A stretch of DNA of 64,000 nucleotides, taken from assembly GCA_902788785.1 (NCBI GenBank), contig CADALT010000011.1, positions 21,766 through 85,765 of the forward strand, given 5' to 3'. Below are positions 20,836-47,374 of this stretch, piece after piece. Both the position numbers and the translations under genes were made by a program. The notes under the pieces are model-generated. The model saw only the letters and a list, made by a program, of their open reading frames with translations, was not told where the DNA came from and ran no database searches. The stretch comes from an uncultured Ruminococcus sp. (GTDB lineage Bacteria; Bacillota; Clostridia; Oscillospirales; Ruminococcaceae). Positions within the stretch are counted from its first letter, which is position 1, and each line of letters begins with the position of its first letter.

Positions 20836-20889
20836 TATATTAAACGACATAAATTTCTATATCAAGAAGTTTTAATGTCGTTTGCTATA
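20836..20889 (+). repeat. Dispersed inverted-repeat element, copy A (short form)
   Basis: 54 bp bounded by TATATTAAACGACAT and ATGTCGTTTGCTATA, which pair as terminal inverted repeats. The internal core seen in copies B and C is deleted. It lies just downstream of the ftsZ hairpin. The remaining gap to divIVA (20890-21026) shows no other feature. Confidence 0.8.
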
Positions 20890-21026
20890 TCCGATTCAAG
20901 CCGCACGGACACGATATTATAGAGTTATGTGGTGCTCATATCGGAAAATTGTACACAAAATCTAAGTTGAGAATTGTATGGTTTACTGAATTTTAACGAA
21001 ATTGTGAAATTTATTAAAGTTTACGG

Positions 21027-21055
21027 TTGAAATGAGCGGCGATTTGTAGTATAAT
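21027..21055 (+). promoter_or_regulatory. Promoter of divIVA
   Basis: TTGAAA, 17-bp spacer, TATAAT; start expected near 21062, leader ~85 bases, with AGGAGG before the ATG. Confidence 0.85.
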
Positions 21056-21145
21056 AAATTAGTATCTATAAACGGTCAGGCACCGTTTATCTTAGAGTTG
21101 CGTAAATTATGATTTGTGCAAATATATTTCAGGAGGGAATAGAAA

Positions 21146-22090
21146 ATGGCTGGTAGCGGATATTTGAGAACGGTAAGAGTCGGCGGTTTCGATAAGCAGG
21201 ATGTTCTGCAGTATGTTGACGAGCTGACTTCCAAGATCTATCAACTCGAGACCAAGGTCAAGGATCAGGAAGAGCAGATCGACCGTCTTGAACAGCAGGA
21301 AGGTACTGTTCAGCAGGGCGATGATGAAGCAAAGAAGGAGCTTGAAGCTAAGGTTGAAGAGGCTAAGCAGAAGATAGCTGAGCTGATGGCTTCCACAGAT
21401 ACTATGAAGGTAAGGATCGCTGACTATGAGCAGCAGATCACTGAGAAGGATGCCGAGATCGAGCAGAAGAATGCTGAGATCGAGGATCTGAAGGATAAGG
21501 TCGCAGAGGCAGAGCAGAAGGCTCAGCAGGCTGAGAACAGCGGTTCACAGCAGGCGTTCGATATGGGTCAGATCTTTGTTCAGGCTCAGCAGACCGCTAA
21601 TATGGCTATCGAGAAGGCTAAGGCTGATGCTAAGCAGATCACTGATGAGGCTGAGGCACAGGCTAACCAGGCTATCGACGATGCTAACGCACAGGCTGAG
21701 GCTACTGTTACAAAGGCTAACACCGAGGCTGAGCAGACCATCAGCGCTGCAAGACAGAGCGCAGAGGATACCAAGGCTGAGGCTAAGAAGGAAGCAGATC
21801 AGGTTACAGGCGCTGCTTACAGCGAGGCTGCAAGAGTCAAGAAGGAAGCCGAGGAAGAGGCTGAAAGACTCATCAACGACGCTAAGGAGAAGGCTGCAGC
21901 TATCAAGAACGATACAGTTGAGATCAGAACAGCTGTCAAGAGTGAGTTCACATCTCTCAGCGACACCGTTCAGAAGCTCGTTACAACTCTTAATGATCTG
22001 TACGGCAGCAGCATCGGCGCTGTTAATACCGCAAGAGATCTGATCGACGATGGTCTTGAGATCGTAAGCGACGAGGAAGAGGAAGTGTAA
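21146..22090 (+). CDS. divIVA: DivIVA-like coiled-coil protein
   Basis: 314 residues. The N-terminal RTVRVGGFDKQDVLQYVDEL matches the membrane-binding DivIVA domain (Phe/Gly turn then coiled coil); the rest is a long parallel coiled coil, rich in Ala, Glu, Lys and Gln (about residues 25-280), ending in an acidic tail (SDEEEEV). DivIVA proteins mark curved membrane at septa and poles and organise wall synthesis. Location right after ftsZ fits. The central Ala/Glu repeats resemble a stalk. Its stop overlaps the next start (TAATG). Confidence 0.88.
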   Translation: MAGSGYLRTVRVGGFDKQDVLQYVDELTSKIYQLETKVKDQEEQIDRLEQQEGTVQQGDDEAKKELEAKVEEAKQKIAELMASTDTMKVRIADYEQQITEKDAEIEQKNAEIEDLKDKVAEAEQKAQQAENSGSQQAFDMGQIFVQAQQTANMAIEKAKADAKQITDEAEAQANQAIDDANAQAEATVTKANTEAEQTISAARQSAEDTKAEAKKEADQVTGAAYSEAARVKKEAEEEAERLINDAKEKAAAIKNDTVEIRTAVKSEFTSLSDTVQKLVTTLNDLYGSSIGAVNTARDLIDDGLEIVSDEEEEV

Positions 22091-22650
22091 TGTCTGATAT
22101 AAGGTCTTTCAGAACGGAAGAACTTAAAGAGCGCAGCGGTGAGCTGAAATGCGGAGATAAGATACTGCTCACGGGCACTGTATATACCGCAAGAGATGCC
22201 GCACATAAGCGCTTCGCAGCACTGCTTGACGAGGGTAAGGAACTTCCTATCCCCTTAGAAGGCGCTGTGATATACTATGCAGGTCCCACACCTGCCCCCG
22301 AGGGCAAGGCTATAGGTTCCTGCGGCCCTACAACTTCGGGCAGGATGGACAGATTTGCGCCCAGACTGCTTGACCTGGGTCTTGGCGGAATGATCGGTAA
22401 GGGCGAAAGATCACAGGAAGTACGTGATGCCGTGGTCAGAAACGGCGCTGTATATCTCTGTGCGGTCGGCGGCGCAGGCGCACTTGCCTGCAACTGCATA
22501 AAGTCCTGCGAGGTCATAGCTTTTGATGACCTTGGGTGCGAATCGGTGAAGAAGCTCTATGTTGAGAACTTCCCTGTTATCGTGGCAGATGATCGTTTCG
22601 GCGGCGATATATTCTCCCGTGGCAGAGCCGAATACTGCACAGCTGAATAA
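22090..22650 (+). CDS. Fumarate hydratase/L(+)-tartrate dehydratase beta subunit-like protein
   Basis: 186 residues, the size of the free beta subunit of class I (iron-sulfur) hydro-lyases. Diagnostic segments: GDKILLTGTVYTARDAAHKR, YYAGPTPA, GSCGPTTSGRMDRFAPRLLDLG, GKGERSQEV and the C-terminal DDLGCESVKKLYVENFPVIVADD. The partner alpha subunit carrying the 4Fe-4S cluster is not adjacent; the upstream gene is divIVA, translationally coupled through TAATG. The enzyme interconverts fumarate and malate or dehydrates tartrate. Which one cannot be told from the beta subunit. Confidence 0.9.
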   Translation: MSDIRSFRTEELKERSGELKCGDKILLTGTVYTARDAAHKRFAALLDEGKELPIPLEGAVIYYAGPTPAPEGKAIGSCGPTTSGRMDRFAPRLLDLGLGGMIGKGERSQEVRDAVVRNGAVYLCAVGGAGALACNCIKSCEVIAFDDLGCESVKKLYVENFPVIVADDRFGGDIFSRGRAEYCTAE

Positions 22651-22662
22651 TGAATAGCACAC

Positions 22663-22697
22663 TCCGGAAGCAGCAAGTCTGTTTCCGGATTTTTTTT
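22663..22697 (+). terminator. Terminator of the divIVA operon
   Basis: Stem TCCGGAA / TTCCGGA, 13-base loop, then nine T in a row. Confidence 0.9.
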
Positions 22698-22817
22698 GCC
22701 CAAAGTAATTTTTTCGAGAAATTATACAAATCTCAACACTGTGATTTCTTTATAGTTAATTGGTCATAATTGTGAACTTGATGTGTTCTTTTGGCGGCGC
22801 AAAATTTGTTGTAATAT

Positions 22818-22852
22818 TAAACGTTTTCGACATATTTACATAAACGTTTTCG
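22818..22852 (+). promoter_or_regulatory. Pair of LacI-type operator candidates upstream of the cellobiose operon
   Basis: The 12-mer TAAACGTTTTCG occurs twice, at 22818 and 22841 (23 bp apart), each holding the palindrome AAACGTTT with a central CG as in LacI-family operators. They lie 70-105 bp upstream of the promoter at 22922. No regulator gene is adjacent. The rest of the gap (22698-22817) is AT-rich with nothing recognisable. Confidence 0.5.
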
Positions 22853-22921
22853 TAATATTGGTAAGATGTTCAAAAGGTTTATAAAATATTTATCTAAATG
22901 GGCAAAAATCGGGAAAAACTC

Positions 22922-22950
22922 TTGAATAATCCTGACTTGTGTGTTATAAT
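22922..22950 (+). promoter_or_regulatory. Promoter of the cellobiose operon
   Basis: TTGAAT, 17-bp spacer, TATAAT; start near 22957, leader about 90 bases to the GTG at 23046. Confidence 0.85.
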
Positions 22951-23045
22951 GGTCTATGTAAATCATGCCCGATGGCGAAATTGCGCTTTGATGCAGTTTT
23001 TGTATTTCTCTTGTACTGCCGTCGGCACGAAAGGAAGAATATACA

Positions 23046-24050
23046 GTGAATAAAATTGACCTGAATTATGAATTCAAGGGTGAAAGCTGCGTAAAAATGC
23101 AGTCCGATAAATATACTGCCATAATCGCTCCCGCTGTGGGCTCTGCGGTGCTCAGGATGAGAGATGACAAGAACGATCTGGAGATCTTCCGTTTCAGGAA
23201 ATTCATCTCTATGCAGAATATCAGAGAGCAGCGTGAGATCTGGGGTCTGCCCACTCTCTATCTGCCTAACCGCTTCGATAAGGGCGTGCTCAAAACATCT
23301 GATGCTGAATACCACTTCCCCATCAATGAACCCTTGTTCAATAATTTCATTCACGGCTGGGTGCATCAGAGAGCGCACGAGATAGAGTGCTACTCCGAGG
23401 ATAACGGCAAATGCGTGCTGATAACCTCGTATATCTATGATAAAAACGACGAGATGTATGAGTTCTTCCCCGTGGATTTCAAGATATCCTATACATTTAC
23501 GCTTTCAAAAGACGGACTCAGACAGGATATCTACCTGACCAATAACTCCGATAAGGCTCTGCCTGTTTCCATATGTACACATACCTGCATCAATTCGCCC
23601 CTTAAAGACGGCGGAAATGAAGCTGACCTGAGACTTTGTGTGCCCGTTGGCGAAAAGTGCGAGCTTGACTCCAGATGTCTGCCTACCGAAAGACTTCTTG
23701 CGCTGACTGATCGGGATAAGGAGTATAAAGCAGGCAAAAAGACCCCCACAGGACAGAAACTCGATAACGATATGTATACCGCTGTCATGAACACCTACAA
23801 GGACAAGCCCTTCAACGGTGTTATCGTCAGAGATATCAAGAACGGCATAACCTTACTCAATGAGGTATCCGAAGAATTCAAATTCTGGAATATCTGGAAC
23901 CACGACGGTGATAAGGGCTATTTCTGCCCCGAGCCGATGACGGCTATGATAAATGCACCAAATCTCAGCCTTGATAAGGAGATAAGCGGTTACTGCGAGA
24001 TAATGAAAGGTGAGACCTTTAAATGCTGGCAGAGGTTCTATACCGAATAA
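23046..24050 (+). CDS. Aldose 1-epimerase/mutarotase-like protein
   Basis: 334 residues of the galactose mutarotase fold: early SDKYTAIIAPAVGSAVLRMRD (pattern of the first strands), LPNRFDKGVL, HGWVHQRAHEI with the paired His usually needed for catalysis, and WNIWNHDGDKGYFCPEPMTAMINAPN near the end. Likely role is to interconvert anomers of the glucose or glucose 1-phosphate-related sugars released with the phosphorylase encoded two genes on. GTG 23046 has GAAAGGA upstream. The gene overlaps the following lipoprotein gene by 28 bases. Confidence 0.8.
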   Translation: MNKIDLNYEFKGESCVKMQSDKYTAIIAPAVGSAVLRMRDDKNDLEIFRFRKFISMQNIREQREIWGLPTLYLPNRFDKGVLKTSDAEYHFPINEPLFNNFIHGWVHQRAHEIECYSEDNGKCVLITSYIYDKNDEMYEFFPVDFKISYTFTLSKDGLRQDIYLTNNSDKALPVSICTHTCINSPLKDGGNEADLRLCVPVGEKCELDSRCLPTERLLALTDRDKEYKAGKKTPTGQKLDNDMYTAVMNTYKDKPFNGVIVRDIKNGITLLNEVSEEFKFWNIWNHDGDKGYFCPEPMTAMINAPNLSLDKEISGYCEIMKGETFKCWQRFYTE

Positions 24051-24802
24051 AAAAAGTCTCCCTGATGACGGCGGCGGTCTGTACGGCTATGCTGTGTACG
24101 GGCTGCGAATGGGACGGCGTGGAGATCCCCGAGCCTGAATTCGATCATGTTGAAATGCAGGCGGATGATCCCGCAAACGAACCTGAAGCACTGGCAAAAA
24201 CCATGCTGGAAGAATGGTTCGGGCTGTTGTCAAAGGGTGAAAAAGATACTGCAAAAACTTATACCGCAGACCGTGTGGGTAAGTTTGGTGCAGATATAAG
24301 GCTGTTCGATACGATATATCCGGGAGAAGCGGAGATAAGCTACTATGCCCCTGCCAAGTCCGATATGTGCGGTGCAGGATATCTTGTGACGCTCAAAACT
24401 CTGCTGATACCAAAAGACCTCCCCGAAACACGGCTGTACAGTGACTTTGTCATTTCTGTCAGCAGCAAGGGCGAGACACGCATCGAACTCATCACCGAGG
24501 TAGGTGCGCCCGAAGCTATGGACGGTATGCTTTACCGCAAGGCTTATCAGGCTTATAATCTGGCTTCGGATTACTACGAACAAGCCTCGGAGAAACCCTG
24601 GGGTGGGATACACCACAGCTATGAGGGTTCTGAGATGACCAACATGATAGAGGATAAGATGAAGCCCCTCTACAGAGAATATTATGAAGTCGCTATACGA
24701 AACGGCAGGGTAATGTATGTAAGCTGGAGCGATGGCTCGATGACACAGCGCTATCCCCATGCCCCCGAAACAGACGAACTTCTTGAACTCGGACCCCCGT
24801 AA
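24023..24802 (+). CDS. Predicted lipoprotein of unknown function in the cellobiose operon
   Basis: 259 residues. Basic start, hydrophobic stretch and lipobox LCTGC (Cys28) mark a signal peptidase II lipoprotein. The following domain (ALAKTMLEEWFGLLSKGEKDTAKTY) resembles a small NTF2-like/DUF-type ligand domain but I do not recognise a family. It starts within the end of the mutarotase-like gene (GGTGAG upstream), so it is co-translated. It could be a surface partner of sugar uptake, but there is no transporter beside it. The repeat copy B begins directly after its stop. Confidence 0.7.
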   Translation: MLAEVLYRIKKVSLMTAAVCTAMLCTGCEWDGVEIPEPEFDHVEMQADDPANEPEALAKTMLEEWFGLLSKGEKDTAKTYTADRVGKFGADIRLFDTIYPGEAEISYYAPAKSDMCGAGYLVTLKTLLIPKDLPETRLYSDFVISVSSKGETRIELITEVGAPEAMDGMLYRKAYQAYNLASDYYEQASEKPWGGIHHSYEGSEMTNMIEDKMKPLYREYYEVAIRNGRVMYVSWSDGSMTQRYPHAPETDELLELGPP

Positions 24803-24803
24803 A

Positions 24804-24906
24804 CTATATTAAACGACATAAATTTCTATACATCGGAAACTCATCGAAATAAGTATCATAGTTCCGACAAGTCCCCTATGTAGAAATTTTAATGTCGTTT
24901 ACTATA
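24804..24906 (+). repeat. Dispersed inverted-repeat element, copy B (full length)
   Basis: 103 bp bounded by TATATTAAACGACAT and ATGTCGTTTACTATA. Inside, AAATTTCTATACAT pairs with ATGTAGAAATTT, and CGGAA with TTCCG, so the whole unit can fold into one long hairpin. A 34-bp core (24839-24872) matches copy C in reverse orientation with one difference. It lies between the lipoprotein gene and the cellobiose phosphorylase gene. Confidence 0.9.
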
Positions 24907-24915
24907 AACGTTAAG

Positions 24916-24965
24916 AAGTCTTTCCCATATCTTTCGTGGGAAAGGTGGAATATATAATGAAAAAA
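24916..24965 (+). promoter_or_regulatory. Hairpin, mini-ORF and duplicated ribosome binding site ahead of cellobiose phosphorylase
   Basis: CTTTCCCA pairs with TGGGAAAG (24917-24941) and would sequester the first AAAGGTGGA site. That site serves a three-codon frame (ATGAAAAAATGA, Met-Lys-Lys-stop, 24958). A second copy of AAAGGTGGA then serves the true ATG at 24986. A translational control role is inference. Confidence 0.4.
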
Positions 24966-24985
24966 TGAAAGGTGGAAATCAATCA

Positions 24986-27439
24986 ATGAAATTCGGATCA
25001 TTTGACGACATCAATAAGGAGTATGTCATCACCGACCCAAGAACACCTTATCCCTGGATCAACTATCTGGGCACACAGGCGTTCTTCTCACTCATTTCCA
25101 ACACCGCAGGCGGCTACAGCTTCTTCAAGGACGCAAGACTGAGAAGGATCACAAGATACCGCTACAATAACGTTCCCGTGGATATGGGCGGAAGATATTT
25201 CTATATAAACGATAACGGCACAGTCTGGAACCCGGGCTGGAGTCCCGTAAAGACCGAGCTCGACGCTTATTCCTGCCGCCACGGTATGGGCTATACCATC
25301 ATCAAGGGCGAAAAGAACGGCATCGAGGCTGAGGTAACTTTCTTCGTTCCTGTTGACTACAACGGCGAAGTGCAGAAGGTAGTCCTCAAGAACAAGGGCA
25401 ATGCAAAGAAGAGCTTCAAACTGTTCTCATTCCAGGAGTGGTGTCTGTGGAATGCACAGGATGACGGCGAGAATTTCCAGAGGAACTTCAACACAGGTGA
25501 GGTCGAGATAGAAGGCTCTACCATCATTCATAAGACCGAGTATAAGGAGAGAAGAGATCACTTCGCTTTCTATACCGTAAATACCGAGATAAGCGGCTTT
25601 GATACCGACAGAGAGACTTTCATGGGCGGCATCTACAACGGCTTTGCTAACCCGGGCACTGTTATGGCAGGTGAGCCTAAGAACTCTGTAGCTGACGGCT
25701 GGTCGCCTGTAGCTTCCCACTGCATCGACGTTACACTGGACGCAGGCGAGGAGAAGACACTGGTATTCGTACTGGGCTATGTTGAGAACGGTAAGGATAA
25801 GTGGAACGCTGACGGCACAATGAACAAGTCCAAGGCTTATGAGATGATAAAAGCTATGGATACCGCAGAGAAGGCTGACAAGGCTCTCGCTGACCTGAAG
25901 GCAAGCTGGGAAGAGCTCCTCAGCCAGTACCACGTTGAGACTGCTGATGATAAGCTCAACAGAATGGTAAATATCTGGAACCAGTACCAGTGCATGGTAA
26001 CATTCAATATGTCAAGATCCGCATCTTACTTCGAGAGCGGTATCGGCAGAGGCATGGGCTTCCGTGACTCCAACCAGGATCTGCTGGGCTTCGTTCACCA
26101 GATACCTGACAGAGCAAGAGAGAGAATTCTCGATCTGGCTGCTACACAGTATGAGGACGGCGGATGCTATCACCAGTATCAGCCCCTTACCAAGAAGGGT
26201 AACGACGCTATCGGCGGCGACTTCTCCGATGACCCGCTGTGGATGATACTCTCCACCGCTCAGTATATCAAGGAAACAGGCGATAAGACTATCCTCGATG
26301 AGAACGTGCCTTACGATAACGATGAGAGCAAGGCTCAGAGCATGATGCACCACCTGAAGCAGAGCTTCTGGCACGTTGCTAAGGCTGTGGGTCCCCACGG
26401 TATGCCTCTTGCCATGAGAGCAGACTGGAACGACTGCCTGAACCTCAGCTGTCATTCCGATACTCCCGGTGAGAGCTTCCAGACATATACTTCGCCTAAG
26501 TACGGCGCTGACAAGTTCAGCCGTGTGGCAGAATCCGTAATGGTAGCTGCTATGATGGCTTACATAGGACCTGAGTACGTTGCACTGTGCAAGATGAAGG
26601 GTCTTGATGATGAGGCTGCAAAGGCTCAGGAAGCTATCGACACCATGAACAAGAATACTCTCGAGTACGGCTGGGACGGCGAATGGTTCCTGCGTGCATA
26701 CGACGACTTCGGCAAGAAGGTCGGCTCACACGAGTGTGAAGAGGGCAAGATATTCATCGAACCCCAGGGCTTCGCTGTTATGGCAGGTCTTGGCAAGGAG
26801 AGCGGCAAGGACATCACCACCATGAACAGCGTCAAGAAGTATCTGGACAGCAAGTATGGTCTGGTGCTCAACAACCCTGCTTTCACTAAGTATTATAAGG
26901 AGTACGGCGAGATATCCACATATCCCGCAGGCTATAAGGAGAACGCAGGTATCTTCTGCCACAACAACGCTTGGATAATCTGCGCTGAGGCTGCTATCGG
27001 CAGAGGCGATCAGGCATTTGAATATTACAGCAAGATAGCTCCTGCATATCTGGAGGATATCTCCGACCTGCACAGAACAGAGCCTTATGTATATGCTCAG
27101 ATGATCGCAGGTAAGGACGCCAAGAGACACGGCGAAGCTAAGAACAGCTGGCTGACAGGTACAGCTTCCTGGAACTTTGTGGCTGTTTCACAGTTCATCC
27201 TGGGCTGCATACCCGACTATGACGGTCTGAAGATCGACCCATCTATACCCGAGGCATGGGACGGCTTCAAGCTGACAAGAAAGTTCCGTGACAACACCTA
27301 CAACATCACAGTCAAGAACCCCGACCACGTTTGCAAGGGCATAAAGGCTGTAACTGTTGACGGCACTAAGATAAACGGCAATATCCTGCCTGTATTCGAT
27401 AAGGGCACAACTCACGAAGTTGAAGTTGTAATGGGATAA
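24986..27439 (+). CDS. cbp: Cellobiose phosphorylase (GH94)
   Basis: 817 residues, typical for GH94. N-terminal [40 protein letters not shown] and [11 protein letters not shown] are family signatures; the catalytic (alpha/alpha)6 domain carries [22 protein letters not shown], and the general-acid region RADWNDCLN is at residues ~478-486. It phosphorolyses cellobiose to glucose 1-phosphate and glucose in the cytoplasm, saving ATP during cellulose use. No signal peptide. ATG 24986 is chosen for the AAAGGTGGA upstream. Close homologs act on cellodextrin or beta-mannosyl-glucose; the match to the cellobiose branch is by overall resemblance only. Confidence 0.93.
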
Positions 27440-27458
27440 TTTGATTTTATAAACATTG

Positions 27459-27493
27459 ACAGAGCGGACATTTTATGTTCGCTCTGTTTTTTT
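27459..27493 (+). terminator. Terminator of the cellobiose operon
   Basis: ACAGAGCGGAC / GTTCGCTCTGT stem, 7-base loop, then eight T. Confidence 0.9.
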
Positions 27494-27517
27494 ATGTTGG
27501 CTGCCCTTTCTAGGCAC

Positions 27518-27545
27518 AAAAAAAGATGGAGTAAAAACTCCATCC
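27518..27545 (-). terminator. Terminator of the 27552-27965 gene
   Basis: On the minus strand, GGATGGAGT / ACTCCATC stem with a T-rich loop followed by seven T; it faces the cellobiose operon terminator. Confidence 0.85.
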
Positions 27546-27551
27546 TGTTTG

Positions 27552-27965
27552 CTATTCATCCATCATATAATCAAAATGTCTGCGATAACGTCTGGGGATA
27601 TTTATCCCGACCATGAATCCCATCTCGGAAAGCACATCCGAGATAACCGCAAAGCCGTCCTTGTAAAATGCACTTATCCTGCGCTGTTTATCATCAATGC
27701 CTTTATAATCGGGCGGACATACAAACGTCCAGTCTGCGCCCTCATCATCAAGAACGATACGGAAAAACTTGTCGATATCGCTGCTTTTGAGACCAAGCCC
27801 CATCATCTCACTCGCCTTGGAAAGCAAGATATGATGCTCGACCGCTTCGTCAACATGGCTTACTATCGCTCGTTTGCCATCGAAAGAGATAAGTACCAGC
27901 AGAGGTTCTTTCTCACGGACTGCGTTATCGACCTCTTTTTCGGAAGGATATTTTATTATTTCCAT
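27552..27965 (-). CDS. Hypothetical cytoplasmic protein
   Basis: 137 residues, no signal peptide or membrane segment. The first part (LLVLISFDGKRAIVSHVDEAVEHHILL) and the closing INIPRRYRRHFDYMMDE do not match a family I know. A GGAGGAG ribosome binding site precedes the ATG. It has its own terminator and lies downstream of the tRNA-Arg gene on the same strand; no clear promoter was seen in the 126-base gap. Confidence 0.65.
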   Translation of the reverse strand: MEIIKYPSEKEVDNAVREKEPLLVLISFDGKRAIVSHVDEAVEHHILLSKASEMMGLGLKSSDIDKFFRIVLDDEGADWTFVCPPDYKGIDDKQRRISAFYKDGFAVISDVLSEMGFMVGINIPRRYRRHFDYMMDE

Positions 27966-28091
27966 GCTATCTCCTCCGTAAAACTTTGTTTGTGCACAAT
28001 ATCAGCAGTGCTGACGTTTGCTGATGCTTCGAGCGCCTGTTTTTTCTATTAAGCGAAATAACGTGACGAATCGGCTTTCCGGGCTAGGGAG

Positions 28092-28165
28092 TGCGCCCGA
28101 CAGGAGTCGAACCTGCGGCCTTCAGAGTCGGAGTCTGACGCTCTATCCAGCTGAGCTACGGACGC
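28092..28165 (-). tRNA. tRNA-Arg (anticodon CCG)
   Basis: Full cloverleaf on the minus strand: acceptor GCGTCCG / CGGGCGC (one G-U pair), D arm GCTC-AGCTGGATA-GAGC, anticodon arm TCAGA-CTCCGAC-TCTGA with CCG at positions 34-36, T arm GCAGG-TTCGACT-CCTGT. The discriminator base is A and CCA is not encoded. It reads the Arg codon CGG. No intron. Confidence 0.95.
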
Positions 28166-28175
28166 TTATTTAAGC

Positions 28176-28203
28176 CCGATAAGGATATCGGGCTTTATTT
28201 TTT
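28176..28203. terminator. Hairpin beside the tRNA gene
   Basis: AAGCCCGATA / TATCGGGCTT with a short loop; the T run lies on the plus strand side. It separates the metG operon from the tRNA gene and may act as a partly bidirectional terminator or as a processing site. Confidence 0.5.
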
Positions 28204-28228
28204 TGAAAAAGTATCTCAGAGCACCATG

Positions 28229-28426
28229 CTAAATTATGTTTGATAAGTCCCACATAAATTTTATCAGCATCAGCAAACCGCATATAATAAGTATCATCGG
28301 TGCTTTTGATGTTCCGTCGGCACCCTTGATTATCTTGACTACTCCTATCGCAAGAGAAGTTATGCCTGCTATACCCGTGCCGATGGTCAATATCCCATAA
28401 AGCACTAAAGCTATCAGCAGATCCAT
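28229..28426 (-). CDS. Small membrane protein after metG
   Basis: 65 residues with two membrane segments (about 4-30 and 43-62) separated by a Lys-containing loop (KIIKGADGTSKAP). It starts within the metG stop codon (TAATG overlap), showing translational coupling. No family recognised. Confidence 0.7.
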   Translation of the reverse strand: MDLLIALVLYGILTIGTGIAGITSLAIGVVKIIKGADGTSKAPMILIICGLLMLIKFMWDLSNII

Positions 28427-30405: not shown

Positions 30406-30468
30406 TGTCAGTACCCCTTTCAGAAAGAATAATATTATTAAACATCACGGCACAAGCCGTACTTATTT

Positions 30469-30497: not shown

Positions 30498-30528
30498 GCA
30501 CGGCGTGGTTCTTGAGCGCATTATAGAC

Positions 30529-30568: not shown

Positions 30569-30574
30569 TTAGTT

Positions 30575-30676
30575 AATAGTAAACGACATTAAAATTTCTA
30601 CATTCGACACTTGTCGGAACTATGATACTTGTTTCGATGAGTGTGGAATGTACAGAAATTTATGCCGTTTAATATA
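30575..30676 (-). repeat. Dispersed inverted-repeat element, copy C (full length, inverted relative to B)
   Basis: About 102 bp. Read on the minus strand it starts TATATTAAACGGCAT and ends ATGTCGTTTACTATT. Core 30609-30642 is the reverse complement of the copy B core with one difference in 34. It starts three bases after the stop codon of the ABC permease gene. Confidence 0.9.
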
Positions 30677-38101: not shown

Positions 38102-38113
38102 CGGGGGTGTACA

Positions 38114-38671: not shown

Positions 38672-38673
38672 CT

Positions 38674-39204: not shown

Positions 39205-39207
39205 TAA

Positions 39208-39247
39208 AACGGAGCTGATGCGTAATGCAAAAGCTCCGTTATTTTTT
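39208..39247 (+). terminator. Terminator after ppa
   Basis: Perfect 9-bp stem AACGGAGCT / AGCTCCGTT followed by A and seven T. Confidence 0.92.
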
Positions 39248-39262
39248 TACTTATGACCGCCC

Positions 39263-39847
39263 TTACTTTATGCGCTTGACTTTCCTGCGCTTGATTTTGA
39301 TAAGGAAAACTTTATCGGAAATATCCATCATAGCCTGATCGTTGTAGGAGTCTGTATAGAAAGCACTTATCTTCCGCTCGCCGTAGACCTCACGGAAACG
39401 CTTGACCTTGTTTGAGCTGAAGTTGAGATAAACAAGCTTTCCCTTATCTATATCTACCTCGGAACATATAAGGTTATCTGTGCCAAGCCTATGCTTTATC
39501 GGCTCAAACAGGAAAGATGGTCCTGCGGTAATTATCAGGTCATCTTTGCCGATACGCTTTAGCATGGCATTTTCAAGTTTGCACGAATTCTTCTGCCAGA
39601 ACTCTCTTACATACTTTTCAAGTTCTTCCCTGTCAAAGCTTATATCCTTGAAAAAGCTTTCCGCTATGGCTTCCATGCGTTCGCCGCTTATTATGCACAG
39701 CTTGTACTTTATCAGATTCCAGAATATTACAGGCATCCACAGGGCTATGCGCTTGTTCTTCCTTATCACGTATATAAGGAGATCCACCGTACTTTCGCCC
39801 CGATAGAGCGTGTTATCAAAATCAAATGCTTTCATTGTACTATCCAT
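39263..39847 (-). CDS. HAD-superfamily phosphatase (subclass IB, SerB-like)
   Basis: 194 residues. Catalytic DxDxT motif FDFDNT (Asp9, Asp11) near the N terminus, a helical cap (about 20-85), motif II at IITAGPS, and late acidic motif FYTDSYNDQAMM. The HAD-IB group includes phosphoserine phosphatase and related small-molecule phosphatases. The start overlaps the end of the PHP gene (stop at 39840), so it is coupled. Substrate is not evident, though serB is otherwise missing beside serC-serA in this window. The start could be Met5 (39835). Confidence 0.8.
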   Translation of the reverse strand: MDSTMKAFDFDNTLYRGESTVDLLIYVIRKNKRIALWMPVIFWNLIKYKLCIISGERMEAIAESFFKDISFDREELEKYVREFWQKNSCKLENAMLKRIGKDDLIITAGPSFLFEPIKHRLGTDNLICSEVDIDKGKLVYLNFSSNKVKRFREVYGERKISAFYTDSYNDQAMMDISDKVFLIKIKRRKVKRIK

Positions 39848-40532
39848 CCAGTTTTTTCAGAGGATATATAGGGCTTATCTTATCCTCGAAGAATGCTTTT
39901 TTGTAGTCCGCTGCCGAGAGAAGTTCCACCTCGCTCTGAATACCGCAAAGTCTTGCCGAATCAACAGTCAGATGGTGGTTGTCAGTACCTGCTGTCATGC
40001 GGAAGCCAAATTCCTTGGCATACCACAGCGCACGGTCATTGAATGCGTCCTTATAATTGCCGCTGTTGTAGACCTCAACACCGTCCACCCACTGGGGCAG
40101 CAGCCTTATCTCACGGAGATAGTCCGCCTCACGGAAAGGGTGTGCGTGTATCAGCAGCGCACCTGCCGCCTTTGCCTTACGCTGAAAATCGAAGAAATCT
40201 CTGTCACAGTCAGGGTTATCCAGCAGCCACTGCTTATCCAGCCCGTAGACCAGTATATCTGCACCGCCATAGGTATACTCTATCCCGAAGAATACCTTGA
40301 GCCCTATCCTGTCGCCCTCTTCCTTAGCGTGTTCGTAGCCGCTGCAATAGCGCTCGACCATATCTTTCCAGGGCATTTCATGATGCACTGTGGAATTGCC
40401 GTTGAAGAAGTGGTCGGTGACGAATATGCCGTCATAGCCCTCATCCTTATAGCGTCTTGCCTGTTCTGCACCTTTAGCCGAAGCGCAGGCAGAGGCTTCA
40501 GCAGTATGTAGATGTGTTTCGTACTTAAACAT
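39840..40532 (-). CDS. PHP-domain phosphoesterase
   Basis: 230 residues. Metal-binding motifs of the PHP family in order: ETHLHTAEAS (His7, His9), VTDHFFNG, FGIEYTYGG (Glu), LIHAHPF and TAGTDNHH. Such proteins hydrolyse small phosphates (for example histidinol phosphate or 3',5'-nucleoside bisphosphates). Sandwiched between DUF1015 and the HAD phosphatase in one operon on the minus strand. Substrate unknown. Confidence 0.85.
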   Translation of the reverse strand: MFKYETHLHTAEASACASAKGAEQARRYKDEGYDGIFVTDHFFNGNSTVHHEMPWKDMVERYCSGYEHAKEEGDRIGLKVFFGIEYTYGGADILVYGLDKQWLLDNPDCDRDFFDFQRKAKAAGALLIHAHPFREADYLREIRLLPQWVDGVEVYNSGNYKDAFNDRALWYAKEFGFRMTAGTDNHHLTVDSARLCGIQSEVELLSAADYKKAFFEDKISPIYPLKKLDG

Positions 40533-40562
40533 CGTTATTGCCTTTCTATGGCGTTTAGCCTG

Positions 40563-41825
40563 TCAGAGCGAGATCTTTCTCGCTTCGACGTAAAATCTTT
40601 TATCCCATGCGTGACCCATGGAGAATGTTTTTCTTGGCAGTGCGCCGTCCTCAATTACTGTGGGGAACAGCTCGTCCTTACCCATATCGGGCAGCAGGAA
40701 TCCTATGGAACGCTCCTTTTTAGACAGCTCGCACACTACCTCCGCACCGTGGATATAGTCGGTCTTGCCGCCCTTTACCTTGGTGTAGTCATCTAAGAAA
40801 TTCTGCAAAGAACCCACGGTAAGCTTTGATGTGGGCTTATGGATATAGAGCTTTTTCTCCTCGCCGTTTTCCACCACGATGAAGCCCTGTTCGCTCTCCT
40901 CATCGCTCAGCCCCAGCTTTTCCGTCATTGCAGACATAAGGTCTGCCTCATCGACCTCGGTAACTATACGGTGTATAGCCTCGAATTCCAGCGCAGGCGA
41001 ATGCAGGTTGACCAGTTCCACCAGCGCATATCTTGCAGGGTGCTTTGAAAGGTCCTTGCCCGGTTCTGCACGTTTGAGTGTCTCATAGAACTCCTTTGCA
41101 GTTGCCAGCGAATGGTTTCCGTCGCCCATGGCAAAAGTCAGGGGAAGTCTGCCCTTCATGCCGTAGCGGCGCTCGAAAGCTTCCTGTCCCGAGAAACGCT
41201 CCAGCAGTGCCTCGACCTGTTCCCTGCTGTCTTCGTCCAGCAGCCAGCCTGTAAGATGACCGCCCTTTTCCATCATATCGAAGTCATATACCATCTTGAA
41301 CTCATTCTTCTTTTCAGCCAGCGGTTCGATGATACGTTTTTTGACATCATCTATCAGTATCATGATGTGTGGCAGCTCGATGGGTGCGCCCTTTCTTATC
41401 TTGATACGGGGCGGTATACGCTCGATGACGGTAGCCTCCGTAGCCCTCACCTGTGACTCCGAGCCCTTATAATACTCATACTCCTGCAAGTCTATCGCAC
41501 CCACAAGACCAGCTCTCACACGTCCGTCGTTCTGTGTGCGCTCGATATAGATCATTGCATTTTTGTATTCCTCAAAAACGCCCTTCTCCAGATACTCCTT
41601 CATGGTGCGGTGTATCCTGTCGATGCGGTAATCCACACCGGGCTGCTCGAGATAGACCTCGGGCAGTATAAGGTTATATGTACTCTCATCATTACCCACG
41701 AACTTCTCCACTCTGTCCCAATACTCGGGCTCGGAAGTATACTGGTCGCAGGCAACTACCGACCATTTCTGCATATCTGCGTTCTTGGGCAGAAGTATAT
41801 CCGCACCCTTGAATGCTGTTGACAT
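40563..41825 (-). CDS. DUF1015 family protein
   Basis: 420 residues. The opening FKGADILLPKN and KWSVVACDQYTSEPEYWDRVE, and the central FAMGDGNHSLATAKEFYE, are the conserved segments of DUF1015. From general knowledge of Clostridia, members are often found near serine biosynthesis genes; here serC/serA are ~11 kb away. Function is not established. GGAG precedes the ATG. It heads a minus-strand group with the PHP and HAD genes. Confidence 0.85.
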   Translation of the reverse strand: MSTAFKGADILLPKNADMQKWSVVACDQYTSEPEYWDRVEKFVGNDESTYNLILPEVYLEQPGVDYRIDRIHRTMKEYLEKGVFEEYKNAMIYIERTQNDGRVRAGLVGAIDLQEYEYYKGSESQVRATEATVIERIPPRIKIRKGAPIELPHIMILIDDVKKRIIEPLAEKKNEFKMVYDFDMMEKGGHLTGWLLDEDSREQVEALLERFSGQEAFERRYGMKGRLPLTFAMGDGNHSLATAKEFYETLKRAEPGKDLSKHPARYALVELVNLHSPALEFEAIHRIVTEVDEADLMSAMTEKLGLSDEESEQGFIVVENGEEKKLYIHKPTSKLTVGSLQNFLDDYTKVKGGKTDYIHGAEVVCELSKKERSIGFLLPDMGKDELFPTVIEDGALPRKTFSMGHAWDKRFYVEARKISL

Positions 41826-41875
41826 TTAAATCACTCCATCTTAGAATTATCTATCTTACAGGAGCTGCTCACTAA

Positions 41876-41919
41876 GCTTCTCCCGATCCAAACTATGCTT
41901 TTTCGCATCGTTTGAACAC
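41876..41919 (-). promoter_or_regulatory. Hairpin in the DUF1015 leader
   Basis: On the minus strand CAAACGATGC pairs with GCATAGTTTG around a six-base GAAAAA loop, 60-90 bases before the DUF1015 start. No T run follows. A separate promoter was not found, so the gene may be read through from secA. Confidence 0.35.
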
Positions 41920-42050
41920 TTAAAACAGGACGGTCCTACATTAAACGACCATGCCTTTGAGCACTGCCTCTCGCCCAAACCAGTATCATAGTCGGGCAAG
42001 TGCTGAATGCAGGCTCTCTCAGTGTCGTTTACTATAATAGCCGTCCTGTT
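41920..42050 (-). terminator. secA terminator with repeat copy D in its loop
   Basis: On the minus strand AACAGGACGG (42050-42041) and CCGTCCTGTT (41933-41924) form a perfect 10-bp stem followed by TTTTAA, as in a terminator, but the loop is 107 bases because element D lies inside it. Confidence 0.7.
41937..42036 (+). repeat. Dispersed inverted-repeat element, copy D (diverged, inside a terminator loop)
   Basis: 100 bp bounded by TACATTAAACGACC and GTGTCGTTTACTATA. The core has changed but still pairs: GCCC / GGGC replaces the CGGAA / TTCCG stem of copy B, and AGCACT / AGTGCT replaces the outer arm. AGTATCATAGT in the core is shared with copies B and C. Confidence 0.8.
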
Positions 42051-42062
42051 CAAAATTATCTA

Positions 42063-42362
42063 TCAGTTCTTTCCGCAGCAATCCTTATACTTTTTGCCGC
42101 TGCCGCAGGGACAAGGATCGTTCCTGCCGACCTTTTTCTTGTTGCGTACAGTCATGTTGTGGTGCTCCATAGGCTTTAAAACTTCCTGTCTCTGGGGAGC
42201 AGCCTGCTGTCTTACCTTGATGGTGAACAGCATCCTTACTGTATCCTCACGGATAGATTCGATCATTGCATCGAACATATCCATACCTTCCATACGGTAC
42301 TCAACAACAGGGTTCTTCTGACCGTAGCTTCTCCAACAGGGTTCTTCTGACCGTAGCTTCTC
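42063..42362 (-). pseudogene. secA: Out-of-frame C-terminal part of SecA (end of helical scaffold and zinc-finger tail)
   Basis: From about 42333 down, the frame reads [19 protein letters not shown], a linker and the SEC-C zinc motif [13 protein letters not shown], the normal end of SecA that binds SecB or ribosomes. It is cut off from the main SecA frame by the 29-bp tandem duplication at 42305-42362. With one repeat copy the two parts join in frame to give about 902 residues. There is no credible start codon and ribosome binding site for separate translation. Confidence 0.9.
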
Positions 42363-44800
42363 AGGGAGATACCTCTCTTGAGCTCTTCCATATCGTCGAT
42401 ATGATCCATCCACTTGGTATCAACTACCTTCAGCAGACAAACTCTCTCGATCTCGTGCAGCAGCTCAGAGCCCAGCTCTTCCTCTCTTGCAGCGTAAATC
42501 TTATTAGCTCTCTCCATAAGAATATCTGTGATCTTGTCACGGGTCAGCTCGTCCATCTGCTCGGATGTGTAGTTGAAGTCGTCCTCATTGGTCAGCAGAC
42601 CATTGAGTCTTTCTTTCAGACCCACAAGGTTCCAGTCATCAGCGATGTCGCCCTGTACATACATATTCACAGAGTCATTCACAAAGTCCTTTATCATATT
42701 GATAATGTACTCGTGGAGATCTTCACCGTCGAGCACCATCTGTCTCTGACCGTAGATTATCTCACGCTGAGTATTCATAACATCGTCGTAGTTAAGTACG
42801 TTCTTTCTTATATTGAAGTTCCTGCCCTCGATCTTCTTCTGTGAAGACTCGATAACGCTTGTAAGCATCTTGGACTGGATAGGTGTATGCTCATCAACAT
42901 TCAGCGAATCCATCATAGTGGTGATCTTATCGCCGCCGAATATACGCATCAGGTCATCTTCCAGTGACAGGAAGAATGTGCTCTCGCCGGGGTCGCCCTG
43001 ACGGCCTGAACGTCCTCTTAGCTGGTTATCTATACGTCTTGACTCATGTCTTTCCGTACCGATGATGTAAAGTCCGCCTGCGGCTCTTACCTTTTCAGCC
43101 TTCTCCTTTACCTCAGCATTGTACTTATCATAAAGCTCTCTGTATCTCTTTCTTGCGGTGAGTATCTCCTCATCCTGTGTATTGGAGAAGCTTGCAGCCT
43201 CAACAGCCTGCTCCTCGGTATAGCCCTCTTTCTGGAGCTGTGCCAGGGACAGATACTCGGCATTACCGCCCAGTGTTATATCGGTACCACGGCCTGCCAT
43301 GTTGGTAGCGATGGTAACAGCACCGAGCTTACCTGCCTGTGCAACGATCAGAGCCTCTCTGTCATGATACTTTGCGTTGAGGACATTATGCTCAACGCCC
43401 TTCTTCTTGAGCAGCTTGGAAAGGTACTCGGACTTCTCGATAGAAACCGTACCTACCAGTACAGGCTGACCTTTTTCATGGCACTCGATGATCTGGTCGA
43501 TGACCGCATCGAACTTGCCTGCCTCGGTCTTATATACCACATCGGGGTGGTCGATCCTGATAACGGGTCTGTTGGTGGGTATCTCGATAACATCGAGCTT
43601 ATAGATCTCCCTGAACTCGTCCTCCTCCGTGAGAGCGGTACCTGTCATACCCGAAAGCTTGCCGTACAGCCTGAAATAGTTCTGGTATGTGATGGTAGCG
43701 ATAGTCTTGGACTCTCTCTTGACCTCAACGCCTTCCTTAGCCTCGATAGCCTGATGCAGACCGTCATTGAAACGTCTGCCGTCCATAACACGTCCTGTGA
43801 ACTCATCAACGATCAGCACTTCGCCGTCTCTTACGATGTAGTCCACGCCTTCCTTCATGACACCGTTAGCCTTGATAGCCTGGTTGATGTGGTGCGCAAG
43901 AGTCATATTCTCCGCATCCATCAGGTTATCCACATGGAAAGCCTTCTCAGCTTTCTTAACACCGCTCTTGGTGATAGTAGCGGTCTTAGCCTTTTCATCT
44001 ATGATGTAGTCGCCGTCCAGCAGGTCATTGTCTGCCTTGTCATCCATTTCGATGACGGTAACGGGCTTCAGTGTCTTTGCGAATTTATCAGCCAGTGCAT
44101 ACAGCTCGGTGGACTTATCGCCCTGACCCGAAATGATAAGAGGAGTTCTCGCCTCATCTATCAGGATGGAGTCTACCTCGTCCACGATGGCGAAAGCGTG
44201 CTCTCTCTGCACCTTATCCTTCTTATAGATGACCATGTTATCTCTCAGGTAGTCAAAGCCCAGCTCGGTATTTGTACCATAAGTGATATCACAGTTATAA
44301 GCCTCTCTCTTTGAAGGCTTATCCATACCTGTCAGCACACAGCCGATGGAAGTATTAAGGAAATTGAATACCTTACCCATTTCCTCGGACTGGAACTTAG
44401 CCAGATAATCGTTAACGGTAACGACATGAACGCCCTTGCCGTTGATGGAGTTGGAATAAGCTGCCAGACAAGCGACCAGTGTTTTACCTTCACCTGTTTT
44501 CATCTCGGCTATTCTGCCCTGATGGAGCACGATAGCGCCTATGATCTGTACGGGGTAAGGCTTTTTGCCCAGCACTCTCCATGCAGCCTCACGGCAAACC
44601 GCCAGTGCATCGGGCAGGATATCGTCCAGCCCGGATACCTCTTCCAGTCTGCTTCTGAGGACAGCTGTCTGCTCACCCAGTTCGGTATCGGACATAGCAG
44701 CATACTTATCTTCCAGTTCAAGTACCTTATTTTTGATAGGTTCGATCTTGGCAAGCTCCTTCTTGGAGTAATTGCCGAATATTTTGTCAAGTAATCCCAT
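42263..44800 (-). CDS. secA: Protein translocase ATPase SecA, frameshifted near the 3' end
   Basis: Motor part complete: Walker [28 protein letters not shown] (Walker B), [14 protein letters not shown] and [13 protein letters not shown] in the second nucleotide-binding domain, pre-protein cross-linking and helical scaffold regions. SecA drives export through SecYEG. AAAGGTGG precedes the ATG. At about residue 822 the normal SYGQKNPV is followed by an unrelated 23-residue tail because a 29-bp stretch is duplicated in tandem (42305-42333 and 42334-42362). SecA is normally essential, so this is either an assembly error, a recent mutation tolerated by the cell, or a reversible switch; a second secA elsewhere is also possible. 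Confidence 0.95.
42305..42362 (-). repeat. Exact 29-bp tandem duplication within secA
   Basis: The two 29-bp copies are identical and adjacent. 29 is not a multiple of three, so the second copy shifts the SecA frame. Confidence 0.97.
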
Positions 44801-44870
44801 TTTCTAGCCACCTTTTTTATTCAGGGGGGATGTCCCTTTCCCTTGATAAACGATATAAAAATACTATTAT

Positions 44871-44899
44871 ATTATACACTAAACTGCCCCAAAAGTCAA
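44871..44899 (-). promoter_or_regulatory. Promoter of secA
   Basis: On the minus strand TTGACT, 17-bp spacer, TATAAT, leader about 65 bases. The rest of the gap (44900-45030) holds no recognised feature. Confidence 0.87.
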
Positions 44900-45032
44900 G
44901 GGCAACACCGCACGTTAGCCGTGTGTCGTATGCGAAGTCGGATTTTTCGTCAGAGTGACTAAAAACGGCACATGATAACTGACGCATTTCAAGATGTTTT
45001 TGGTCGCTCTTTCTATATTCGTTCCTGTATAA

Positions 45033-45066
45033 AAATACCGCCGAACTACGCCGTCGGCGGTATTTG
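45033..45066 (-). terminator. Terminator after the 45088-46035 gene
   Basis: On the minus strand AAATACCGCCGA / TTCGGCGGTATTT stem with an 8-base loop, ending in T residues. Confidence 0.85.
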
Positions 45067-45087
45067 CATTATTTGGAACAGCGCCTG

Positions 45088-46035
45088 TCACTGTGGGATA
45101 TTGTTATCTCCGTTATTAAGAGGCTGACCCGTCATGGGGTCGAAACCACCCTGCTGCACGGGCTGTACAGGCTGACCCGTCATGGGGTCGAAACCGCCCT
45201 GCTGTACGGGCTGTACAGGCTGTTGAGCCTGCGTCGAAGACTCATAAAGCGCATCAAGAAAAGCGATCTTCATAGCCTTTTCCTCTCCCGGAACTTCTCT
45301 GTCATATATCAGCAAAGGCACCAGCAGGCAAGCTATGAGGTCAAGTATGTTTAACAACGCAGACCGTGCCAAACCACCTAATGCCACACAGGTCAGACAG
45401 TAATACAGCAGATAATACGCCAGACCTATCAGTCCGATATACACTATCTTGCTGTTAGGGCATCTTCTCTCGCTATAGTCATACATAACAAATACCATGT
45501 AGATCGGAAGCATCCCCATCGGCATGACAAACCCAAAAGCGAAACTGATAAGAACATTCACTATCATCATACCGTAGAATATCACAAGGAAAAAGTTTCT
45601 TCCCCGAGGCTTTACGAGCCCGAGATAATATACTGCGATGACTGCACTGAAAAGCAGCTCAACGATGCGCATCAATATCAGGAATCCTATATCTTTTTGT
45701 AACATCATTGTACTGTCACTCCAAAAAAATGTCAGGCGAAACATATCTACTAAGCTTGAAATACCTACGAGATTTACCACCGCAAGTGCTCCAACAAACA
45801 AATAACTGAATATTTTATCATGGTGCTTTCCAAACAGGAACACGATGGCAATTATTATTTGTGGTGAATTCGATAAGATAGTTCTAAACAAAACCATTCC
45901 CGATATGCTTCCCAAAGGATTGTTTATCACCCGTATCAATTCGATCAGCAGCGATAGTCCCAATGAGCCCAAAATACATATTGCGATCACCTTCGCCACA
46001 AGCTTGTAGTCACGAAGCTTTTCCATTGTTGGCAT
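45088..46035 (-). CDS. Polytopic membrane protein with 16-residue C-terminal repeats
   Basis: 315 residues with about eight membrane segments (first near VAKVIAICILGSLGLSLLI). The cytoplasmic tail has two perfect copies of a 16-residue unit, QPVQPVQQGGFDPMTG, encoded by a 48-bp tandem repeat, then a partial third. I do not recognise a family. AGGAGGT precedes the ATG. Confidence 0.75.
   Translation of the reverse strand: MPTMEKLRDYKLVAKVIAICILGSLGLSLLIELIRVINNPLGSISGMVLFRTILSNSPQIIIAIVFLFGKHHDKIFSYLFVGALAVVNLVGISSLVDMFRLTFFWSDSTMMLQKDIGFLILMRIVELLFSAVIAVYYLGLVKPRGRNFFLVIFYGMMIVNVLISFAFGFVMPMGMLPIYMVFVMYDYSERRCPNSKIVYIGLIGLAYYLLYYCLTCVALGGLARSALLNILDLIACLLVPLLIYDREVPGEEKAMKIAFLDALYESSTQAQQPVQPVQQGGFDPMTGQPVQPVQQGGFDPMTGQPLNNGDNNIPQ
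45121..45216 (-). repeat. 48-bp tandem repeat (two units) in the membrane protein gene
   Basis: Units 45121-45168 and 45169-45216 differ at only a few positions, and keep the frame. Copy number changes would add or remove 16 residues of a Pro/Gln/Gly-rich tail. Confidence 0.9.
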
Positions 46036-46072
46036 AAAAATTTACCTCCTATCAGCCAAATTATCAGCAGAT

Positions 46073-46106
46073 AAAAAGCGCCGCTGAGTATCACATCAAG
46101 CGGCGC
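46073..46106 (-). terminator. Terminator after the zinc-ribbon gene
   Basis: Minus strand GCGCCGCT / AGCGGCGC stem, 13-base loop, then five T. Confidence 0.88.
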
Positions 46107-46125
46107 ATATTAGCTGTAATATAGA

Positions 46126-46407
46126 TCAGAACTGCTCTTCCTTCATCTTAGCGAAGCATTCGCTGCAGTATACAGGTCTGTCCTCACGGGGCTTAAAGGG
46201 TATCAGCGCCTCGCCGCCGCAAGCAGCACAAACTGCCTTGTAGGTCTGTCTCTCAGATCTGGAAGCAGCCTTTCTTGCATCTCTGCAAGCCTTGCATCTC
46301 TGGGGCTCATTAGTGAAACCCTTCTCTGCATAGAATTCCTGCTCACCTGCTGTGAAGATGAACTCATTGCCGCAATCCTTACATACTAATGTCTTGTCCT
46401 CGTACAT
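46126..46407 (-). CDS. Zinc-ribbon protein (two CxxC pairs per half)
   Basis: 93 residues. The first half has CKDCGNEFIFTAGEQEFY and later CKAC, matching the widespread probable zinc-binding domain (zf-trcl); the second half has CAAC and CSEC. Four CxxC pairs suggest two structural zinc sites. Proteins of this pattern are common in Firmicutes; the function is unknown. It follows the sigma factor gene at 100 bases on the same strand. Confidence 0.8.
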   Translation of the reverse strand: MYEDKTLVCKDCGNEFIFTAGEQEFYAEKGFTNEPQRCKACRDARKAASRSERQTYKAVCAACGGEALIPFKPREDRPVYCSECFAKMKEEQF

Positions 46408-46507
46408 ATTCTCTTACCTCGATCTTAAAAATATGGTTTGTTTTCCGCCGCAGACGGTCTTGCACCGCCATCCTTCATGCGAATGCTCTGCTTTAAGCTA
46501 TGCGGCA

Positions 46508-47095
46508 TCATCTGAATATCGTGCGAAGCTTCCTGCGAAGCCTCTGCATGGCATTGTTCACGGATTTCTCGCTCATACCCAGCTTTTGTGCGATCTGCCT
46601 GTGAGAAAGTCCTGCCAGAAAGAGCTGCAGCACGTCCCACTCAAGGTCAGATAGCGCATCGGCTATCTGTGTAAAAAGCTCATCATAGCTCTCCCTCTCG
46701 ATGACTGCATTCTCGGGGATCTCATCCTCACTGCCGCAAAGGAACTCATCCAGTTCATCCGCAGGCACAGATTCCTCCGCCTCGATCTTAGCATCTTTCA
46801 TCATATACGAGAGCATCCTGTGTCTTATACACACCCCTGCATAGGTCGCAAAACCTGCGCCACGGTCGGGACGATAGCTGTTCACCGCCTTTAGCAGTGC
46901 CATCATACCCTCCTGCACCAGATCCTTGATGATCTGCTCTCTGCCGTTTCTCGGAGCAAGTTTAGCTGCGATATGTTCCGCCGTACCCATGTATCTGCAA
47001 AGCAGCGCACCCAATGCAGCCTTATCACTGCCCGAAAGTCTTGCCAGTTCCTCATCAGAGAACTGCTCATAATCATCCGAATGACCTTTTAACAC
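46508..47095 (-). CDS. Sigma-70 family sigma factor (SigH-like)
   Basis: 195 residues. Region 2: DLVQEGMMALLKAVNSYRPDRGAGFATYAGVCIRHRM, with the core-binding and -10-recognition pattern; region 4: LSDLEWDVLQLFLAGLSHRQIAQKLGMSEKSVNNAMQRLRRKLRT, a helix-turn-helix for -35 recognition. Length and region 2 sequence recall SigH (Spo0H) more than ECF factors. In Bacillus sigH lies just upstream of rpmG-secE-nusG; here it lies beyond rplA on the other side of a terminator, in the same direction. GTG 47095 start with AAGGCGG 7 bases ahead. Confidence 0.9.
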   Translation of the reverse strand: MLKGHSDDYEQFSDEELARLSGSDKAALGALLCRYMGTAEHIAAKLAPRNGREQIIKDLVQEGMMALLKAVNSYRPDRGAGFATYAGVCIRHRMLSYMMKDAKIEAEESVPADELDEFLCGSEDEIPENAVIERESYDELFTQIADALSDLEWDVLQLFLAGLSHRQIAQKLGMSEKSVNNAMQRLRRKLRTIFR

Positions 47096-47145
47096 CTGCG
47101 CACCGCCTTAAAACCTTTACAAATGGTACATTTGAACATAAACAC

Positions 47146-47174
47146 ATCATAACATTTTCTACACAATAAGTCAA
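47146..47174 (-). promoter_or_regulatory. Promoter of the sigma factor gene
   Basis: Minus strand TTGACT, 17-bp spacer, TATGAT. Start near 47139, leader about 45 bases. Confidence 0.8.
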
Positions 47175-47289
47175 GAGATTGTACCAAATTCTTCTCCAAA
47201 TTTTAATTTTTTGTAACAACGTACATATTTCGCACAAATTCTTTGTGAGTTTAGCCCACATTAACATAACCATATTTTGCTCTATCAAT

Positions 47290-47320
47290 AAAAAAACGGC
47301 GGAGACTTTCCGCCGTTTTA
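47290..47320 (-). terminator. Terminator of the rplK-rplA operon
   Basis: Minus strand AAACGGCGGA / TCCGCCGTTT perfect 10-bp stem followed by T residues. Confidence 0.9.
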
Positions 47321-47328
47321 TACACATA

Positions 47329-47374
47329 CAGTAAGCGACATTAAAATGCTTTGGATTTTATGTCGTTTAATATG
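47329..47374 (-). repeat. Dispersed inverted-repeat element, copy E (short form)
   Basis: 46 bp; on the minus strand starts CATATTAAACGACATA and ends AATGTCGCTTACTG. The two ends pair into a hairpin around GCTTTGG. It lies between the rplA stop codon and the operon terminator. Confidence 0.75.

Follow-up and report, generated by a model that had tools for sequence, protein, structure and literature searches.

Hairpin elements in the window and in its genome

A stretch of 64,000 bp from an uncultured Ruminococcus sp. (contig CADALT010000011.1, positions 21,766 to 85,765), referred to here as the window, carries five copies (A to E) of a short hairpin element that lies next to genes such as ftsZ, secA and rplA (Table 1). 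The initial annotation described these copies as a dispersed family with polar inverted ends, and all five are confirmed at the places given there, with the starts of copies B and E corrected by 1-2 bases. All ten ends of the five copies fit TATAKTAAACGACAT with 0-3 mismatches. The 15-base end (up to three mismatches) has 14 matches in the window against 2.58 expected, four of them outside the five copies, and none of 100 shuffles gave as many. Copies B and C have a core in common with one difference, the core of copy D is changed and still folds, and copies A and E are internally deleted, all as first described. The statement that every copy lies just downstream of a gene holds for A, B, C and E (the last 2 bp behind rplA) but not for D, which is separated by 226 bp from the 3' end of secA and by 111 bp from the start of the DUF1015 gene.

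Table 1. Hairpin copies and a lone end in the window (spans of A to E counted with the terminal TATA; R1, covariance model described in the text)
Feature	Position	Strand	Form	Surroundings or remark	R1 match
Copy A	20836-20889	+	54 bp, internally deleted	52 bp behind ftsZ	yes
Copy B	24805-24906	+	102 bp, full length with terminal TATA	2 bp behind an open reading frame, before a GH94 gene	yes
Copy C	30575-30676	-	102 bp, full length	2 bp downstream of an ABC-2 permease-like gene	yes
Copy D	41937-42036	+	100 bp, diverged core	flanked by secA (3' end) and the DUF1015 gene (5' end)	yes
Copy E	47327-47374	-	48 bp, internally deleted	after the rplA stop codon, before a terminator-like hairpin	yes
Lone end TAGATTAAACGACAT	16960-16974	-		no partner found by the pairing script; possible remnant	

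The genome to which the window belongs (G000; 2.95 Mb, 67 contigs) contains many further copies. The 15-base end with at most one mismatch occurs at 100 places, compared with 3 for a reversed control, and the recurrence of the ends is far beyond chance. With a covariance model (R1) built from 26 copies of this genome, 80 matches at E up to 0.01 were obtained over both strands. They reduce to 51 distinct places, of which two overlap where the assembly has a gap (C54). A search of this type had been proposed in the initial annotation; its alternative outcome, a genome without further copies, did not occur. Pairing of the ends yielded 58 pairings, some of them alternative or over-long, and 48 rows (one place entered twice) were used to describe the gene context with a crude gene caller. 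None of the 48 rows lies inside a predicted gene. Of the 38 placements at the 3' end of a gene, 13 are no more than 11 bp away from the stop codon, and the element has the same orientation as the gene reading into it in 22 cases and the opposite orientation in 11. The ends listed for this genome (at most one mismatch) also include 26 that have no partner, although at least two of these do belong to a paired copy; of the rest, several are found next to terminator-like hairpins or close to start codons. These ends may be remnants, or the lone end may have a use.

A full copy consists of 98 bp between two TA dinucleotides, TA-TATTAAACGACAT...ATGTCGTTTACTA-TA. The whole unit is able to fold as one long imperfect hairpin whose arms pair over most of their length, and many folds show a staggered two-base bulge in each arm. 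Many full copies in the window's genome are 100-103 bp long, and strongly deleted copies measure 33-54 bp. In 19 folded copies chosen from ten genera, the arms comprise 45-49 bases in 18, the remaining one being a copy of the window's genome (L061) that folds differently, with arms of 62 and 30. The loop comprises 8-11 bases in 17 of the 19 and 7 and 15 bases in the other two; model R2 was built partly from copies of G030, a genome of another genus, so the likeness of the loops is partly selected and is given little weight. Four head-to-tail copies with TA or TATA in common are present on one contig of the window's genome (L062:1611-2010). Arrays of three to four copies with one to four terminal bases in common also occur at L082:1206-1610 and L083:1219-1522, the three arrays coming from this genome and from G019. 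A different repeat, GGCAACACCGCACAA...TTGTGCGGTGTTGCC, was found inside two copies of the window's genome (L031:2662-2927 and L039:1534-1811), apparently with 4-bp duplications (TAAA, TTAA).

Filled and empty sites and spread among relatives

Movement of the elements can be read in G019, a metagenome-assembled genome (MAG) of an uncultured Ruminococcus, which contains letter-identical copies at different sites, in two sets of 7 and one of 3. In the first set, three of the sites sit in copies of one host repeat, of which other copies are empty. The empty junction, GGGCAT-TA-ACARTAG, is present in 14 of 31 repeat rows, one of them with GGGAAT. The left side of the filled junction, GGGCAT-TA[98 bp]TA-ACAATAG, is present in 6 of the 31 rows and its right side in three copies, the remaining rows being cut by contig ends or differing. 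The filled site exceeds the empty one by 98 bp and a second TA. The host repeat is itself a second dispersed repeat with ends near GGTTATCCCGCTGACACACC and an inner 20-mer that has 48 matches (L122-L151, L087-L089); empty sites are available because only some of its copies carry the hairpin element. In G162, a related hairpin (L203:1411-1514) splits an IS630 transposase gene, as read by comparison with unsplit copies of that gene, and is flanked on each side by TA, one tip having an extra base. Target duplications and empty sites, suggested at first as checks on mobility, are thus both present, the TA being duplicated in G019 and likewise around the related hairpin in G162. The hairpin elements are mobile.

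The position of copy E was compared among relatives. At 26 loci of 25 relatives, the DNA 3' of rplA carries no element, and any end motif in it has at least 2 mismatches in 12 (700 bp behind the gene, 101 bp in one locus; 3 of the 28 relatives gave no rplA locus). A strictly conserved position, which the initial annotation would have taken as a sign of a fixed element, was accordingly not seen at the one site compared.

Of the 28 other genomes searched in the genus, 14 have matches to R1. The copy-rich genomes are G000, G019 and G017, with 51, 57 and 31 places or matches, respectively. Although built from copies of the window's genome only, R1 also gives 11 matches in G030 (best E 2.2e-5). Hairpins were found in 12 of 148 genomes drawn from the family, and related hairpins occur in nine further genera besides Ruminococcus. 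Matches in G033 (L265:1501-1632) and G177 (L261:1501-1634), of another genus, consist of paired near-perfect palindromes of 35-37 bp that lie about 60 bases apart and have TATA-like ends; they are possibly a different hairpin family. The exact 23-base end has no match in viral contigs; in genome contigs it occurs in 29 stretches, all from the MAG G019, in a collection from which records near the window's genome may be excluded. One copy (C3:59569) has no match in phage or plasmid records. No description of this Ruminococcus family was found among the matches listed for open-licence PMC papers (Ruminococcus with MITE, IS630 or repeat terms).

Mobilisation and alternative explanations

The family is interpreted, with a probability of roughly 0.8, as non-autonomous, TA-inserting miniature inverted-repeat transposable elements (MITEs) that depend for their movement on a trans-acting transposase of the IS630/Tc1-mariner kind. 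The small non-autonomous mobile element ending in TATA that was first proposed agrees with the 51 places, the identical copies in a relative, the TA-duplicating filled and empty sites and the absence at rplA. The filled and empty sites show that copies insert at TA in intergenic DNA, and in the proposed mechanism a transposase of this kind would recognise the terminal 25-35 bp. Internal deletion would give rise to the copies of 33-54 bp, and tandem arrays would arise by insertion beside a copy or by unequal recombination.

Mobilisation of the IS630 type is likely, as inferred from the duplicated TA and from an IS630-family element in G030 whose end is almost that of the local hairpins. Insertion into TA has been reported for the IS630/Tc1-mariner kind (PMC2170065). 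All eight hairpins read in G030 have the form TA-ATACTA...AGTA-TA. The left end of the IS630-family element of that genome agrees with the left arm of the local hairpin over about 35 bases, and the right end over about 15. A complete IS630-family element of 1133 bp is present in G162 (L201:844-1976), where it lies between two TA and has an extra A at its left tip, as in the G030 hairpins. Its protein is about 90% identical to that of G030.

Several observations count against this interpretation. The left end of the insertion sequence (IS) in G030 is without the extra A, and the two hairpins read in G162 match the local IS ends only in part (the outer tip and, in one of them, one inner block). 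No match to DDE_3, the IS630 domain family, exceeded the cut-off in 29 genomes of the genus, though elements in G019 have moved recently. An earlier DDE_3 search in Ruminococcus gave 0 of 9 genomes, and three matches below the cut-off (G018, G002 and G005) had no tblastn hit with the G030 IS proteins. Among the 148 family genomes, DDE_3 was found in 12 (9 over the cut-off) and hairpins in 12, and both were found in three (G030, G162 and G087, the last below the cut-off), where about one would be expected by chance. A duplicated TA does not by itself fully rule out an element with a TA of its own, and among the copies of the window's genome an empty site was read only for copy E, by its absence in relatives.

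An autonomous transposase with the same ends, for which the initial annotation had suggested looking, was not found in Ruminococcus, either by DDE_3 in the 29 genomes or by its ends in four relatives. Among the matches listed for these four (G019, G023, G005 and G027), exact ends facing inwards at a distance of 0.7-3.5 kb were not seen by eye. Two ends 1.3 kb apart in the window's genome (L040) enclose an apparently ordinary gene, as judged by eye with no family search. As far as these assemblies show, the Ruminococcus family is an orphan. Orphan MITEs are known, examples being Correia and ERIC.

The absence of IS630 matches over the cut-off in 29 Ruminococcus genomes would also suit a MITE moved by another TA-duplicating DDE transposase outside the IS630 family, and the transposase searches covered DDE_3 and Y1 only. 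This explanation is unlikely in view of the IS630-family ends in G030 and G162 and of the R1 model, which links the hairpins of Ruminococcus with those of G030.

The polar ends, fixed length and compensatory changes of the hairpin are also found in REPINs (PMC3116915), REP-type hairpins for which a Y1 (RAYT, IS200/IS605-like) transposase would move the folded single strand. Matches to Y1 occur in 16 of 29 genomes of the genus and are slightly commoner in genomes with R1 matches (10 of 15) than in those without (6 of 14). However, Y1 gave no match at E up to 0.001 in the element-bearing genomes G000, G007, G016, G017 and G019, three of which are copy-rich, and none of 15 Y1 loci is framed by the hairpin ends, a lone end with 2 mismatches being all that was found. 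The TA on both sides of the insertion also counts against Y1. Movement by such an enzyme is very improbable, and the label of REP type in its strict sense is not upheld, as the copy-rich genomes G000, G019 and G017 are without a Y1 match.

A fixed regulatory or 3'-end RNA element, such as an attenuator or stabiliser that stays with its genes, would account for the stable hairpins, the placements close to stop codons, the excess of copies in the orientation of the gene, and the terminator-like hairpin that follows copy E. Against it stand unrelated sites that carry letter-identical copies, the occurrence of filled as well as empty sites, and the absence of the element from the 26 orthologous rplA loci; at the gathering score, Rfam identifies one tRNA and no other family in the window. 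The initial proposal of a 3'-end RNA element therefore fails as the principal explanation: the family is not a fixed 3'-end RNA element, and the chance that it is a fixed regulatory element of any such type is slight indeed. Copies such as E would nevertheless be transcribed, those landing behind a stop codon as a 3' hairpin, which is more likely a side effect than a fixed function. An integron attC site was dropped as an explanation once the TA duplication had been seen.

Paired changes in the stem and comparison with known systems

The hairpin is maintained while its letters change. In the 26 copies of the window's genome, 40 pairs are paired at 89.7%, and 19 pairs are changed on both sides, giving 80 double-change cells compared with 28.5 in shuffles (0 of 500 as high). 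Further pair types, one of five measures, are not clearly raised (42 compared with 38.7; 52 of 500 as high). The inner 14 pairs, which lie beyond the first 29 columns, contribute 67 of the 80 cells and have a covariation of 0.442, compared with 0.175 in shuffled and at most 0.141 in slid alignments; further pair types are again not clearly raised (63 of 500). The shuffles leave the relatedness of the copies in, and the structure was derived from one of the sequences.

A second alignment (A3) contains 18 chosen sequences of 102-105 bp from Ruminococcus and nine other genera. Left out of it are the matches in G033 and G177, which measure 132-134 bp and each comprise two short palindromes. It differs from the set of 19 folded copies in that the G162 hairpin in L203 and copy L061 were dropped and L116 was added. 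Both sides are changed in 23 of its 32 predicted pairs. The central 29 columns are unpaired in the consensus, though in most single folds some of these columns take part in pairing. Overall length, the hairpin and a loop that mostly has 8-11 bases persist across the ten genera, whereas the letters of the stem are exchanged in pairs. Copies with mismatched arms exist, and the changes therefore need not be simultaneous.

A mini-ISY100 with 30 bp from each end is reported to move as well as the whole element (PMC2170065), and recognition of the ends alone thus does not explain the inner hairpin. Three causes of the paired changes are left: the fold may be selected because movement needs it, transcripts that are harmless or useful may be selected, or one arm may be copied onto the other in replication. 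It is conceivable, though rather doubtful, that the transposition machinery selects the folded hairpin itself and not only its double-stranded ends, which would make this a TA-inserting, IS630-ended element that lives like a REPIN. Paired changes beyond the terminal stretch reportedly needed by a double-strand-cutting transposase raise the question of whether a MITE of the DDE type must fold in order to move. Folding as a requirement for movement has been argued for REPINs. The family described here adds a MITE that half of the searched Ruminococcus relatives (14 of 28) carry, and one genome, G030, offers an IS630-family element together with a hairpin that has nearly the same end.

Several known systems resemble the Ruminococcus hairpin, the likeness being drawn in each case from published descriptions. 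ISY100, of the IS630/Tc1-mariner kind, has a TA target with duplication and short terminal repeats (PMC2170065), as has the Ruminococcus hairpin, whereas the latter is without a transposase gene of its own and would be a derivative moved in trans. REPINs, in which length and folding capacity appear to matter and compensatory changes are common (PMC3116915), are like the Ruminococcus hairpin in fixed length and compensatory changes. They go with RAYT (Y1), whereas the Ruminococcus hairpin has TA on both sides and, in G030, IS630-like ends. Correia/NEMIS of Neisseria and ERIC of enterobacteria are likewise short hairpin MITEs with TA ends and a target duplication (PMC2229807), but differ in host and in length (about 107/155 and 127 bp, respectively). 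RUP is an intergenic, TA-inserting element of about 107 bp with ends like those of the IS630 family (IS630-Spn1), and is tightly folded with its ends paired (PMC2229807, PMC3049150). It is like the Ruminococcus hairpin in size, intergenic TA insertion and paired ends, and RUP insertions in IS genes have been reported (PMC2229807), as with the G162 hairpin in an IS630 gene. Unlike RUP, the Ruminococcus hairpin occurs in a genus without IS630 matches over the cut-off, and its related hairpins extend over ten genera with paired changes in the stem. By anatomy and insertion the family belongs with RUP, Correia and ERIC, and is closest, as placed by description, to RUP. It is a new family of a known kind, the MITEs, and its unusual feature is how far the fold is kept while the letters change.

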